Source of the DNA: Acidobacteriota bacterium
Lineage (GTDB): Bacteria; Acidobacteriota; Terriglobia; Acidiferrales; UBA7541
NCBI GenBank assembly: GCA_013289855.1
Contig: JABCZD010000006.1
Location: forward strand, 186,001-250,000
DNA: 64,000 nt
Direction of reading: 5' to 3'
Shown: piece by piece, positions 56,629 to 63,195 of the stretch
Layout: every line of letters begins with the position of its first letter
Position numbering within the stretch: position 1 is the first letter of the stretch
Translations under genes and position numbers: made by a program
The notes under the pieces: generated by a model
The model's input: the letters and a program-made list of their open reading frames with translations, nothing else
Database searches by the model: none
Told to the model about the DNA's origin: nothing

Positions 56629-56847
56629 CTAATTCTGCCGATCTTTGTACTCTTCGTCCCAGGCCATTTGGATGGCTTCGAGTTTGCTTTCGTTAGAGGC
56701 AGCCGCTTCGCCCGCGAAATTCGGCAGCTCCAGAATCCATTTGTGCATGTCGGTGAAGCGCACGGTGAGCGGATCGATGTCCGGATGGGCGTCGGTCAAT
56801 CCAATCGCGATGTCTTCAATGTCGTCCCAATCGAAAGTTGGAGGCAA
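56629..56847 (-). CDS. iscX: Iron-sulfur cluster assembly protein IscX
   Basis: The 72-residue product matches IscX (YfhJ): DWDDIEDIAIGLTDAHPDIDP, VRFTDMHKWILEL and SNESKLEAIQMAWDEEY. IscX binds IscS and Fe and modulates the ISC assembly complex. The TTG start at 56847 is 8 bases after AAGGAG. It is the last gene of the isc run, separated from fdx by a copy of the 50-bp interspersed repeat. Confidence 0.93.
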   Translation of the reverse strand: MPPTFDWDDIEDIAIGLTDAHPDIDPLTVRFTDMHKWILELPNFAGEAAASNESKLEAIQMAWDEEYKDRQN

Positions 56848-56938: not shown

Positions 56939-57349
56939 TTAGTGATCGAGTTCTTTCGCGTAGTTCTTATTCCACTCCGGAATTTCCACGACTATATCCG
57001 TCGTGCCGTCGGGCACGGTCTGGCAACCGAGGCGTGATTTTTGCGTGATGCCCGGCGCCATGTCCAACTCATCCAGCTCGGCGTCCGTCGCTTCGTTGCA
57101 CGATTCAAGACCCTCTTTCACGAAGACGTGGCAGGTCGAGCAGGCGCAGACGCCGCCACAGGCGTGGTCCAGCCCGGCCTTGAGGCCCTCGGAGATATCG
57201 AGAATGCTGCCCGGCAGGCCGTTGTGGCCGTAGGGAATTTTCTCGGGATCGACTTCCATGGTCTTGCCGCTGGGAAGAAACGTGATTTTGTATTTCTTCG
57301 TCGCCGGCTTGTATTTTACTTCTTCGATGTATGGGTTACTGCCGCCCAT
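56939..57349 (-). CDS. fdx: ISC-type [2Fe-2S] ferredoxin
   Basis: The 136-residue product has the adrenodoxin-type C-x5-C-x2-C motif (C64, C70, C73 in HACGGVCACSTCHVF) and C109 (LGCQTV) as the fourth ligand, with additional cysteines at 68 and 84. This ferredoxin supplies electrons for cluster assembly on IscU. It has an N-terminal extension of about 20 residues relative to E. coli Fdx. AGGAG precedes the ATG. It is between hscA and iscX. Confidence 0.93.
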   Translation of the reverse strand: MGGSNPYIEEVKYKPATKKYKITFLPSGKTMEVDPEKIPYGHNGLPGSILDISEGLKAGLDHACGGVCACSTCHVFVKEGLESCNEATDAELDELDMAPGITQKSRLGCQTVPDGTTDIVVEIPEWNKNYAKELDH

Positions 57350-57486: not shown

Positions 57487-59328
57487 CTAAACTTCGGCGA
57501 GCTTGCGGCCTTGCAACGCTGACGAGACCGCCGAATTCATCAGCAATTCGGCTAGATGCTCCGTGGCGTGATTCAATTCATCGATGCGCTTGCGTGCCAA
57601 TTTGTAATCCGTGCCGGCGACCGCTTCTCGCAGCACGGCCGCGCTGGCCTCTATTTTGCCACGCTCTTCGGCGGATAGTCCCGCGGCATCTGGCGTGGCC
57701 AAGCCTTTTAGCGTTGCCGCCAGAATCGATTCGCTTTCGGTACGCGCTTCGATGAGCTGACGCTCGGCAAAATCCTGCTCTGCATACTCGATGGAATCTT
57801 CCAGCATGCGCTCGATTTCGGCATCGCCGATGCCGTAGCTGGGCTGCACTTCGATGGAATGTTCTTCGCCGGTGCGCAAATCCTTGGCGGACACCTGTAG
57901 AATGCCGCTGGCATCGATCAGAAATTTTACCTCGATGCGCGGAAGGCCCGCGGGAGCCGGAACTGTTTTCAATGTGAAGCGCGCCAGCGAACGGCAATCC
58001 TTGGCCAGTTCGCGTTCGCCTTGCAGCACGTGAATGTCGATGCCCGTCTGATTGTCCACGCCGGTGGTGTATTGCTCTTGCGCGCTGGCGGGAATGGTGG
58101 AGTTGCGCGGAATAATTTTGGAAACAGCGCCGCCGTACGTTTCGATGCCGAGCGAAAGCGGGGTGACGTCCAGCAGCAGCATATTGCTGACGCCGCGTTC
58201 CAGAATATTTGCCTGGACCGCCGCACCCAGCGCTACGACTTCGTCAGGATTCAATTCCGTGTGCGGCGCGCGGCCAAAGAATTCCCGCACCGTGCTGCGA
58301 ATCAGCGGCGTGCGCGTAGTGCCTCCCACAAGAACCACTTCCTCAATCTGCGCGGGCGTAAGTTTCGCGTCGGCCAGCGCGGCTTTCACCGGTGCCATGG
58401 TGCGGTCTACGATCGGGCGAATCAGATTGTCAAAATGTTCCCGGGAAATTGCCGTCGCGAAAACCGCGCCGTTGGGTAAGGGAAAACGAATATCTACATT
58501 GGATTCGGTGGAGAGTTGATGCTTCGCGGCGATCAATGCTTTGCGCAATTCCTGGGCAACTTCCGGCTTTGTAGAAATATCGACGCCGTGTTCCTGGCGG
58601 ATTTTTTCGCGCACCAGGGACTGCAGCAGATTATCGATATCGTCGCCGCCGAGATGAGTGTCACCGTTGGTGGCGAGCACCTGGTAAATGTCGCCTTCGC
58701 TGGTGGAGATTAGTTTTAGAACGGAGATGTCGAAGGTGCCCCCGCCGAGATCGTAGACCGCTACGTGGCCGCGCTGCTTTTCGTGTAGGCCGTAAGCCAG
58801 GGCGGCCGCGGTCGGCTCGTTCACGAGGCGCACGATTTCCAAGTCGGCAATTTTTCCAGCGTCTTTGGTGGCCTGGCGCTGCGCGTCATTGAAATACGCG
58901 GGCACCGTGACAACCGCACGCTCGACTTTTTCGCCTAGCGCGGCTTCCGCCCAATTCTTCAGTTCGCGCAGGATGAACGCGGAGATTTCCGGCGGGGTAA
59001 AATACTTGTCGCCGAGTTGCACGCGAATTACATTTTTAGAATTCGGATCGATGCGAAACGGGAAGAGTTTTAGCTCGGACTGAACGTCCGCCGAGCCGCG
59101 ACCCATCAGGCGCTTTACGGAATAGATGGTGCGTTCGGGTTGCGTCAAAAGGCGGCGCTTCGCTGCTTCGCCTACGATAACGCTGCCGTCGGCGTCGAGA
59201 CTCACCACCGAAGGGCACAGCGTGGAGCCATACGGTCCCGGGATACACTTCGGCTCGTTCGTCTGCGGGTCGATGTACGCGACCAGACTGTTGGTAGTGC
59301 CTAAATCGATTCCGACGATTCTGCTCAT
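57487..59328 (-). CDS. hscA: Iron-sulfur cluster chaperone HscA
   Basis: The 613-residue Hsp70-family protein starts [20 protein letters not shown] and has the ATPase signatures [14 protein letters not shown] and [11 protein letters not shown]. The substrate-binding domain follows, with the linker near the [13 protein letters not shown] region. Length and context with HscB identify it as HscA, which binds IscU at its LPPVK motif and promotes cluster transfer. The ATG at 59328 replaces a longer frame from 59388. It overlaps no gene; hscB ends 37 bases upstream. Confidence 0.94.
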
Positions 59329-59365
59329 GGTAAAAACCGCAGGGCTCAGAAGCAAGCGCCCTGCG

Positions 59366-59986
59366 CTACAGGAGCTCCTTTTGGACATTCGCTACCAAAT
59401 TCCGGATGTATGAGCGGCCATTCAGTAATTCATTGAGGCGCTGCTTGATTGCTTCGCGTTCGGCGTGGGGGTTCGTTCCGCTGGCTTCGACCTCCACTGT
59501 CGCGTCCCAATGTTTGGCGACGGCGAAAAGCTCCGCGTCAACTTCTTCGAGCTTTTGCTGGAAATTCTTTTGCGCGGATTCCAGGCGCGCTTTCAGCGCC
59601 GTTAAATCTCCGCCTTCGGATTTTGCGTCGCGCAGTTCGTCCAGCGATTCGTTTAACTCGAAGACTTCTTCGAGCAGTTCCGGAGGCGCTTGTTGCTTGT
59701 GCTCGCCTTCTTTGCGGGCGCCTTCGATGGCTAGCAGATATTCGACGCGGGCCACGGGGTCGCACAACGTGCGATAGGCGTCGTTCAATTCCGAACTGCG
59801 CTTGAGCGAAAGCTCGCGTTCCGTTTCACTAGCATTTACAAAATTATCCGGATGCAGTTTCCAGCTAAGTTGCAGAAACTTTTGCTCCAGCGCGGCCATC
59901 TCGATCCACAGTTTGCGCGGCAGGGCAAACACTGAGAAGTAGTCCGGTGTGGGTGGAGCTGTCGCGGCGGTGTTTGATGCGGTCAT
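59366..59986 (-). CDS. hscB: Fe-S J-domain co-chaperone HscB
   Basis: The 206-residue product has an N-terminal J domain with the HPD motif (SWKLHPDNF) and a C-terminal helical IscU-binding domain ([17 protein letters not shown]). It delivers IscU to HscA and stimulates its ATPase. No ribosome binding site precedes its ATG well, and a terminator-like hairpin lies only about 20 bases upstream, so its expression probably depends on read-through from iscA. Confidence 0.93.
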
Positions 59987-60100: not shown

Positions 60101-60511
60101 TCAGGCCGTGAACGAGCTGCCGCAGCCGCAGTTACGCGCGGCGTTCGGGTTCTGGAAGACGAAGCCCTGGCGCATCAGCGTTTCTTCGTACTCCAGAGTG
60201 GTGCCGTTCAGATACAGAAAACTTTTTGGATCGACAAAGAGGCGCGCGCCAAATTCTTCAAAGATTTTGTCGCGATCGCGGGCCTGCGTGTCCAAACGCA
60301 TTGCGTAGGAAAGGCCGGAGCATCCGCCGCCTTGCACGCCTACGCGCAGGCCGCCTACTTCCGGAGAAACTCCGTCTTTTTCCAGCAACGCGCGGATTTT
60401 TTTTGCGGCGCGTTCGGTCAGGTGGATCTTGGGGGCGCTTGGCGCGCCGTCTTTGTCGACGTTGGGCTTGATACCCAGCATGTTGTTGGGATCTACGGTT
60501 TGGGTCGACAT
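60101..60511 (-). CDS. iscA: A-type Fe-S carrier IscA
   Basis: The 136-residue product has the A-type cysteine set: GGGCSGLSY and CGCGSSF, and IHLTERAAKKIRALLEKDG core text. It carries iron or clusters from IscU to targets. It has about 30 extra N-terminal residues before the core. The ATG at 60511 has GGAG seven bases upstream. It lies between iscU and hscB. Confidence 0.92.
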   Translation of the reverse strand: MSTQTVDPNNMLGIKPNVDKDGAPSAPKIHLTERAAKKIRALLEKDGVSPEVGGLRVGVQGGGCSGLSYAMRLDTQARDRDKIFEEFGARLFVDPKSFLYLNGTTLEYEETLMRQGFVFQNPNAARNCGCGSSFTA

Positions 60512-60552
60512 AAGGTGCTCCAAAAAATTGCCCAGTGCTTACGCCTGGGCGT

Positions 60553-60595: not shown

Positions 60596-61012
60596 TTAGT
60601 GCGCGACTTTTTCGGCTACTGGGACGGCGATGCCGTGCTTTTTCTTCCAGTCGCCGATGGCGGCCTTGATGGCGTCTTCGGCCAGCACCGAGCAGTGAAT
60701 CTTGACCGGGGGCAGAGCCAGTTCGCGCACGATGTCCGTGTTCTTGATGGACAGCGCCTCTTCGACGGTCTTGCCCTTGACCCATTCGGTGGCCAACGAA
60801 GAGCTGGCGATCGCCGAGCCGCAGCCAAACGTTTTAAATTTGGCTTCTTCGATGACGTTGGTGTCCGGATTGATGCGCATCTGCAACTTCATTACGTCGC
60901 CGCATTCCGGAGCGCCCACGAGACCCGTGCCCACGTTGGGATCTTCCTTGGAAAGGCTGCCCACGTTGCGCGGATTATTGTAGTGCTCGACTACCTTGTC
61001 GCTATATGCCAT
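60596..61012 (-). CDS. iscU: Iron-sulfur scaffold protein IscU
   Basis: The 138-residue product has the three cluster cysteines C37 (PECGDV), C64 (FGCGSA) and C107 (IHCSVL), the Asp after C37 and the HscA recognition motif LPPVK (100-104). IscU receives sulfur from IscS and iron to build clusters. ATG after an AGG-rich site. It is preceded by orf100 and two hairpins. Confidence 0.96.
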   Translation of the reverse strand: MAYSDKVVEHYNNPRNVGSLSKEDPNVGTGLVGAPECGDVMKLQMRINPDTNVIEEAKFKTFGCGSAIASSSLATEWVKGKTVEEALSIKNTDIVRELALPPVKIHCSVLAEDAIKAAIGDWKKKHGIAVPVAEKVAH

Positions 61013-61116
61013 AACCTGTGCTCCTTACTTTCGGTGACCACGAAGCGGCCAACAAATCTTCTGACCGTCGAGCGGTCAATCCTGCCAAAAAATCTTACGC
61101 GGCCCAAGAATACCAT

Positions 61117-61166
61117 CGGCTTGCAACAAGCCGGTAGTGCGAGAAGCTGATTGCTCAGCTTCTCGC
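61117..61166 (-). other. Two hairpins between orf100 and iscU
   Basis: In transcript order: GCGAGAAGCTGA (61166-61155 read on minus strand), 4-base loop, TCAGCTTCTCGC, then CGGCTTG-TTG-CAAGCCG near 61133-61117. The first hairpin contains the orf100 stop codon. No T-run follows, so this looks like an RNA-processing or stability element more than a terminator. Confidence 0.6.
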
Positions 61167-61457
61167 CATATTTTGCACGCTGACGAAGCCCGCGCTGCGG
61201 ATTGCCTTATCCGAGAGCGAAACATTCGGCACCCACGCCGAGCGGCCCGCGGTCAATTGCCGCAAAGCATCCTTGATGAACTCCGCGCCCACGCCGAGCA
61301 ATTTCAAAAACGCGCGCACTTCCTGCAACTGTTGAAAGGAGCGCTGCCCCGCGGGATTCGCTTCGTCGCTATCGTCATACGGCACGAAGGCCACGCGAAA
61401 CGCGGCGCCCGTGCCACCAATTGAACGGTGTATCTGAATTGTTCCCTCGCTTGCCAT
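61155..61457 (-). CDS. Unrecognised 100-residue protein inside the isc operon (orf100)
   Basis: The 100-residue product begins MASEGTIQIHRSIGGTGAAF and has FRVAFVPYDDSDEANPAG and GVGAEFIKDALRQLTAGRSA segments with no cysteine, no signal peptide and no membrane helix. I do not recognise a family. The ATG at 61457 follows a GAGGG-type site and lies 29 bases after the iscS stop; an upstream in-frame start at 61502 would overlap iscS by 16 bases. Its fixed place between iscS and iscU suggests a role with cysteine desulfurase or scaffold, perhaps as an IscS-binding regulator; this is inference from context. Confidence 0.7.
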   Translation of the reverse strand: MASEGTIQIHRSIGGTGAAFRVAFVPYDDSDEANPAGQRSFQQLQEVRAFLKLLGVGAEFIKDALRQLTAGRSAWVPNVSLSDKAIRSAGFVSVQNMARS

Positions 61458-61486: not shown

Positions 61487-62707
61487 TTAAGCTGTTTGCC
61501 ATTTGACCTTTGAAATATCGATGCCTTCCTTGGCCATTTCATACAACGGAGACAATTCTCGGAGTTTGGTTACGACTTGAGTCATCTTTTCGATGACGTA
61601 GTCGACCTCCTCCGGGGTATTAAAGCGCCCGAGGCCAAAACGAATCGACGTGTGAGCGAGGTCTTCGCCCACGCCTAATGCTTTGAGTACATAGCTGGGC
61701 TCGAGGGTTGCCGAGGTGCAGGCGGAACCGCTCGAAACCGCTATGTCGTTGATACCCATAAGCAATGATTCACCTTCCACGTAGGCGAAACTCATATTTA
61801 GATTGTTGGGCAGCCGGTGCTCCATGGAGCCATTGATGAAGACTTCATCCAGCTTGGCTTCCAAGCCCTTTTGCAGCCGCGTGCGCAACGCCAGCATGCG
61901 GGCCGATTCTTCCGGCATTTCTTGTTGCGCGATCTCACAAGCCTTGCCCAGTCCCACGATGCCGGGAACGTTTAGGGTGCCGGAACGCATGCCGCGTTCG
62001 TGGCCGCCGCCGTCGATAATGGCGGAAAGCTGCACGCGCGGATTGCGGCGGCGGACATACAGCGCGCCCACGCCCTTGGGTCCGTAAATCTTGTGCCCGG
62101 AGATGGCCAGAAGATCGATGTTGTCCTTCTGCACGTCCACGGGAATTTTTCCTACGGCCTGCACGCCATCGACGGCGAAGAAAATGCCGTGTTCCTTGGC
62201 GATTTTGCCGATTTCCCGAATCGGGTTGACGGCGCCAATTTCGTTGTTGGCGTACATCACGGTGATCAAGATGGTGGTCGGGCGAATCGCGACTTTCAGC
62301 TCATCGAGATTTACGCGGCCGTCTTTCTGCACCGGCAAATAGGTGACTTCAAAGCCTTCCTTCTCCAGGCGCTTGCAGGTATCCAGCACGGCTTTGTGCT
62401 CGATGGCCTCGGTGATGATGTGGTTGCCCTTTTCGCGGTACATTTCGGCAACGCCCTTGATCATCAGGTTGTCGGATTCCGTGGCGCCGCTGGTGAAGAT
62501 GATTTCCTTCGGCGTGGCGCCAATCAGCGAAGCAACCTGCTGGCGGGCGGTTTCCACGGCCTCTTCGCCGGCCCAGCCAAAGGAGTGATTGCGGCTCGCG
62601 GCATTGCCAAACTTTTCGTTGAAATAGGGCAGCATCGCTTCCACGACGCGCGGGTCCACCGGCGTGGTAGCGTGATTGTCCATGTAGATCGGCAGTTTTA
62701 CGGCCAT
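61487..62707 (-). CDS. iscS: Cysteine desulfurase IscS
   Basis: The 406-residue class V aminotransferase has the PLP lysine in [17 protein letters not shown], the catalytic loop Cys in [14 protein letters not shown] and the start [21 protein letters not shown]. It removes sulfur from cysteine as a persulfide for IscU. An AGGG site precedes the ATG. It is the first enzyme gene after iscR. Confidence 0.96.
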
Positions 62708-62760: not shown

Positions 62761-63195
62761 CTATCGCAATTCGACGAGCGCGTGTTCGTGCACTTCTTCG
62801 CTCATCTGCGAGATCGTCACGGTGCTCAAAACCGTTAAAATGCTCTCATTCACGCGACGCAGCGGTTCGCGCACCGTACAACGGTCCGTAGCGTCGCAAG
62901 CACCGTGACTGGTCACGCAAGAGGTGATCAGCACCGGGCCGTCAATCGCGCTAATCACGTCCAGCGCGCTGATTTGCGACGGCTCTTTCGCCAACTGATA
63001 TCCGCCGCTGGAGCCGTGCTTGGCGCCCACCAAACCCTGCTTCGCCAACTTTTGCAGCACCTTGGCCATCAGCGTCACAGAAATTCCATACTCTTCGGCA
63101 ATTTCATTGGCGCTGCACGCATGCTGCTGACGATGCATGGCCAAATGTTTGACGGCGATCAATCCGTAGTCGGCTTTTTTCGACAGTTTAAACAT
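62761..63195 (-). CDS. iscR: Rrf2-family Fe-S cluster regulator IscR
   Basis: The 144-residue product has the Rrf2 winged helix (KKADYGLIAVKHLAM, LAKQGLVGAKHGSSGGYQLAK) and three cysteines C93, C100 and C106 in a C-x6-C-x5-C arrangement close to the [2Fe-2S] ligands of E. coli IscR. The fourth ligand His is not at the expected place (Arg there), so the cluster ligation may differ. It heads the isc operon and a matching site lies at its promoter, so it probably represses the operon when holo. Confidence 0.92.
   Translation of the reverse strand: MFKLSKKADYGLIAVKHLAMHRQQHACSANEIAEEYGISVTLMAKVLQKLAKQGLVGAKHGSSGGYQLAKEPSQISALDVISAIDGPVLITSCVTSHGACDATDRCTVREPLRRVNESILTVLSTVTISQMSEEVHEHALVELR

Follow-up and report, generated by a model that had tools for sequence, protein, structure and literature searches.

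Our analysis of the window, a 64,000-nucleotide stretch of an Acidobacteriota genome (G000), shows that the gene orf100, located between iscS and iscU, encodes what is, as judged by profile searches, a conserved and unnamed protein outside the Pfam and NCBIfam families. It is a genuine gene under strong purifying selection and, according to the genomes searched, is restricted to two genera, the window's own (g1) and a second carrier genus (g11), rather than being general to Acidobacteriota. We see about an even chance that orf100 is a lineage-specific ISC accessory protein that acts on IscS-IscU and is made in step with IscU. Titles and abstract openings revealed no published work describing an Acidobacteriota gene that separates iscS from iscU.

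The gene order iscR-iscS-orf100-iscU-iscA-hscB-hscA-fdx-iscX, proposed in an earlier sequence-only reading, was confirmed with Pfam, the matches along the operon being Rrf2, Aminotran_5, NifU_N, Fe-S_biosyn, HSCB_C/DnaJ, HSP70, Fer2 and Fe-S_assembly, which is IscX (Table 1). That reading was also correct in every detail of the frame itself: coordinates, strand, ATG start, TGA stop, length of 100 residues, the absence of cysteine from the product, and the 29 bases that separate the iscS stop from the orf100 start. The onset of homology coincides with the ATG at 61457 and not with an in-frame ATG located 45 bases upstream within iscS. The ribosome-binding site that had been called plausible is there, but in the window it is only of moderate strength. 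Because the Pfam match of hscA begins only at residue 24, the real start of that gene may be a later ATG.

Table 1. Features of the isc operon in the window and of the orf100 paralogue in related genomes.
Feature	Coordinates	Strand	Remarks
iscR (Rrf2 regulator)	62761..63195	-	first gene of the operon; Pfam
iscS, cysteine desulfurase	61487..62707	-	Pfam
IscS codons W403-Q404	61496..61501	-	Q404 in all examined orf100 carriers and in none of the examined non-carriers
orf100, 100 aa	61155..61457	-	ATG 61455-61457, TGA 61155-61157
orf100-iscU gap, 142 bases	61013..61154	-	TAATG overlap instead in most relatives
AAGGAG, likely iscU ribosome-binding site	61021..61026	-	within the last codons of orf100 in most relatives
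iscU, scaffold	60596..61012	-	Pfam
iscA, A-type carrier	60101..60523	-	listed frame from TTG 60523; ATG at 60511
hscB, J-domain co-chaperone	59366..59986	-	Pfam
hscA, Hsp70	57487..59388	-	Pfam match from residue 24
fdx, 2Fe-2S ferredoxin	56939..57349	-	Pfam
iscX (Fe-S_assembly)	56629..56847	-	Pfam
nrdJ-linked paralogue, unnamed	L111:2171-2506 + L112, L113, L118-L134, L140-L147		strongly conserved (EVRGALEDILRLGSANIPDLWLSDEE)

A chance frame would be expected to be absent from all other isc operons or to show a dN/dS near 1 across relatives. Instead, we found 37 intact copies (31 in g1 and 6 in g11), all of them between iscS and iscU and on the same strand, and a dN/dS of approximately 0.013 relative to the nearest species (dN 0.0132, dS 1.05). 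In pairwise comparisons pS exceeded pN in 666 of 666 pairs, with dS close to saturation in the distant ones, and an alignment of 27 sequences contained 14 invariant columns, including Gly71-Arg72-Ser73-Ala74. The homologues, the constant locus and the dN/dS together rule out a chance frame. The earlier view of orf100 as a true operon member is borne out by its constant place, purifying selection, co-occurrence with ISC, and the stop/start overlap with iscU in most relatives.

A protein search of the 95 genomes of the GTDB order returned 40 genomes with a match (32 in g1, 6 in g11 and 2 weak), of which 38 have a full or contig-cut orf100; the weak matches, in G048 and G084, lie away from isc genes. 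A laxer profile search returned 42 genomes, and the four outside the common 38 had distant or partial matches. Within g1, an ISC-type IscU (match E below 1e-40) was present in 32 of 36 genomes and orf100 in exactly those 32, counting one genome (G017) in which a contig end falls inside the gene; the other four (G008, G009, G020 and G037) had a distant SufU-like IscU match or none, and orf100 was absent. Within g11, 7 of 20 genomes had an ISC-type IscU; orf100 was found in six of these seven and in none of the 13 genomes without ISC, while G071 and G081 contained distant, unlinked relatives. The same 13 g11 genomes lacked cyaY, and ISC seems to have been lost in them along with its frataxin. 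The seventh ISC-bearing g11 genome, G079, has iscS and iscU without orf100, with 64 bases from the IscS match to iscU.

Elsewhere in the order, 30 genomes had an ISC-type IscU and none had orf100; one further genome (G063, g10), with a 41-residue ISC-like IscU piece, was not counted. G044 and G092 were excluded from the locus comparison because their contigs end in iscU. In the 28 loci that were compared, the distance from the end of the IscS match to iscU was 38-276 bases, and no remnant of orf100 was detected in the iscS-iscU gap at E ≤ 1. The survey of isc operons that the sequence-only reading had called for thus showed orf100 to be clearly absent outside the two genera in this order, and these 28 loci together with G079 indicate that it is dispensable for ISC in general. 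The description of the gene as lineage-specific held: intact copies occur in 2 of the 17 genera of the order, and among 396 genomes sampled evenly across the phylum a profile search recovered only G000 and one 33-residue partial match in a longer frame. A short-peptide scan of 84,980 species genomes, which detects close relatives only, yielded six loci; the record title was Acidobacteria for five of them and Betaproteobacteria bacterium for one. The latter (L034, CAJCHZ010000122.1) corresponds to contig C122 of G038, which GTDB places in g1, and is probably mislabelled. In a tree of IscS and IscU, the orf100-less genus g6 adjoins g1 (support 100) and the orf100-less g9 and g2 adjoin g11 (supports 97 and 98), and the deeper nodes had weak support; orf100 may have been gained early and lost several times since, or it may have been transferred.

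The junction between orf100 and iscU bears on how the two products are made. In 27 of the 37 loci, among them 21 of the 31 g1 loci and all six g11 loci, one base serves both the orf100 stop and the iscU start in the sequence TAATG, and the last few codons of orf100 in these overlapping loci also contain an AGGAG-type ribosome site for iscU. The next junction, iscU-iscA, is by contrast open in the same loci. In the ten non-overlapping loci, one of which (L018) has a run of N in the gap, orf100 and iscU are 16 to 142 bases apart, with 142 in the window and 135 in its nearest relative. Stop-start overlaps of the TAATG kind usually lead to translational coupling, and tight coupling often joins partner proteins. 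The frequency of the overlap suggests that orf100 and iscU are probably translationally coupled in vivo, and that orf100 is probably an accessory part of the iron-sulfur machine. This arrangement points at least as much to IscU as to IscS.

The desulfurase sequence provides a possible link to IscS. The residue that follows the C-terminal Trp of IscS is Gln in 37 of 37 orf100 carriers, while in 29 loci without orf100 the same position is occupied by Lys, Asn, Thr, Ser, Arg or Gly and never by Gln. When 29 g1, 6 g11 and 28 other rows were compared, Gln404 was the sole column among 545 columns of IscS and IscU that was exclusive to the g1 and g11 carriers. In E. coli, IscU docks near the IscS C-terminus and removal of residues 376-404 abolishes binding (PMC2854127). 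However, Gln404 was found post hoc, and when 54 clade pairs are judged by the same rule, 6 of them have at least one exclusive common column, so that the link between Gln404 and orf100 is suggestive and does not amount to proof.

Comparisons with known families and folds returned little for orf100. In Pfam, the window's protein had a single row below threshold (E 0.2; 10.5 bits, the curated cut-off being 25.5), and no family was reached by the 27 members (best E 0.054). NCBIfam gave nothing for the window's protein and a best E of 0.0021 among the members (pelota, 3 of 27), and a search of PDB sequences gave two matches (best E 0.29); both results were taken as chance. An AlphaFold2 model built with the 27-row alignment (pLDDT 83, pTM 0.75) contains strands at residues 2-11, 20-26 and 38-41, helices at 44-54 and 58-69, a strand at 74-82 and a helix at 83-88. 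Foldseek against the PDB gave a best E of 0.53 and no match at E ≤ 0.001, and in a second structural comparison the best rows were ribosomal proteins (Z 4.8, rmsd 3.1, 63 aligned). No PDB match was convincing for orf100 or for the paralogue described below, a result that does not by itself make the fold new. Ten g1 sequences had a pI of 6.7-10.6, against 4.8-5.3 for two from g11, and the two g11 orthologues checked contain one and two cysteines. This change in the sign of the net charge between the genera is unlike a single conserved electrostatic binding face, and CyaY-like acidic binding is unsupported by the pI ranges.

A paralogue of orf100 lies directly 3′ of nrdJ, the gene for class II, B12-dependent ribonucleotide reductase, in 28 of 28 fetched g1 loci. 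Profile-profile comparison joined it to orf100 with a probability of 92.7 (P 4.2e-7, 90 columns), and its model (pLDDT 81; best Foldseek E 0.63; best Z 4.1, rmsd 3.5, 79 aligned) has the same order of elements, as expected for members of one superfamily, although the motif that is invariably GRSA in orf100 reads GSA in the paralogue. Its location after nrdJ and not in isc indicates that the domain is not inherently ISC-specific. In 16 nrdJ loci from other genera, no convincing paralogue was found within 500 bases 3′ of nrdJ, the best candidate, in L152, scoring 4.6 bits with hmmsearch (E 0.0066, three sequences searched). The idea that the domain binds the C-terminal tail of the preceding enzyme is unsupported for NrdJ, whose end residues are similar in these 16 loci, and the TSCPD domain of NrdJ (PF12637) was rejected as a source of the fold (hhalign probability 0.4 over 5 columns).

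Other relatives are either free-standing (L100, L135, L136, L137 and L139) or form C-terminal domains (L045 and L138). The L138 protein (L138:3039-4081) has two domains, the C-terminal one orf100-like; its reading frame begins within the end of a HEPN-domain gene, and the gene downstream presumably resembles murI. A plasmid search with this protein returned one Deinococcus record, covering only residues 2-66, outside the orf100-like part. L136 and L137 are distant free-standing relatives in g6 beside a methyltransferase gene (Pfam MTS for L137), with a tssB-like gene also seen nearby by eye. In a single-domain tree, a split with 87% support parted the g1 and g11 isc copies from the nrdJ group, while support at most nodes was low and the placing of L136 and L137 uncertain.

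These relatives raise the question of whether orf100 has an ISC role. It could be a passenger with a general task, such as ligand or nucleic-acid binding or stress, as its kin beside nrdJ, standing free or forming C-terminal domains would allow; yet g11 genomes carry orf100 only when they bear ISC, and intact copies occur only at the iscS-iscU junction in both genera, which makes this explanation unlikely in our judgement. A bolder view of the same relatives is somewhat more doubtful still: orf100 and the paralogue would belong to a new adaptor-domain family placed immediately after key metabolic enzymes (IscS and NrdJ) in these Acidobacteriota, the isc member being a lineage-specific third IscS-IscU subunit that reads the Trp-Gln end and gates sulfur transfer.

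The junction itself admits two other explanations. The iscU ribosome site inside the last orf100 codons, together with TAATG, would suit an expression device in which stopping and restarting set the IscU/IscS ratio and the protein matters little. This appears very improbable given that conservation extends along the entire protein, that the fold is predicted fairly confidently and recurs in a paralogue elsewhere, and that neither the window nor its nearest relative has the overlap, yet their proteins are 98% identical. Alternatively, orf100 might be a folding or holding factor for IscU only, without contact with IscS. The overlap is with iscU rather than iscS, as would befit such a partner, but the single carrier-exclusive residue is in IscS and not in IscU, and we regard an IscU-only factor as improbable, about to the same degree as a passenger.

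We therefore favor, with the reservation expressed at the outset, a small alpha/beta ISC accessory protein from a larger, unnamed family of small domains, of which it is one branch. The protein would be translated from the isc mRNA between IscS and IscU, and in most relatives ribosomes ending orf100 would restart on iscU, such that orf100 would be supplied in step with the scaffold. We infer from the observed position that orf100 would most likely act on the IscS-IscU pair: it may bind near the C-terminal end of IscS, which is also the docking place of IscU, and either stabilize the pair or tune the transfer of sulfur. The role of desulfurase modulator suggested in the sequence-only reading is a plausible candidate. 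With protein and operon well defined, G079 and the sister genera without the gene provide a natural comparison.

Bacterial ISC systems are generally regarded as having a fixed complement of eight genes plus cyaY. CyaY/frataxin is a small alpha/beta protein of approximately 100 aa associated with IscS-IscU, and orf100 is likewise small, predicted to be alpha/beta, and about 100 aa long. However, neither the window's orf100 nor any of the 27 members matched PF01491 at E ≤ 1, and cyaY is present elsewhere in 71 of the 95 order genomes, including 35 of 36 in g1. As the carriers also have cyaY, a replacement of frataxin by orf100 is ruled out. The sole g1 exception is G000, in which nrdJ and the paralogue were not found either; close relatives have these genes, and with a completeness of 90% assembly gaps are likely.

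IscX, a regulator of IscS, resembles orf100 in being encoded by a small gene in the isc operon; the window has a separate iscX, and PF04384 matched neither its orf100 nor the 27 members. ISD11/LYR and ACP are parts of the mitochondrial NFS1 complex and, as lineage-specific desulfurase subunits, would be a functional parallel to orf100. LYR proteins are all-helical, whereas orf100 is predicted to mix strands and helices in the order βββααβα, and no LYR family appeared among the Pfam matches listed for the 27 members. If our reading is true, only one family of soil Acidobacteria makes this further conserved protein in step with the scaffold, and a bacterial clade would have added its own part to the desulfurase-scaffold complex, in parallel to mitochondrial ISD11.
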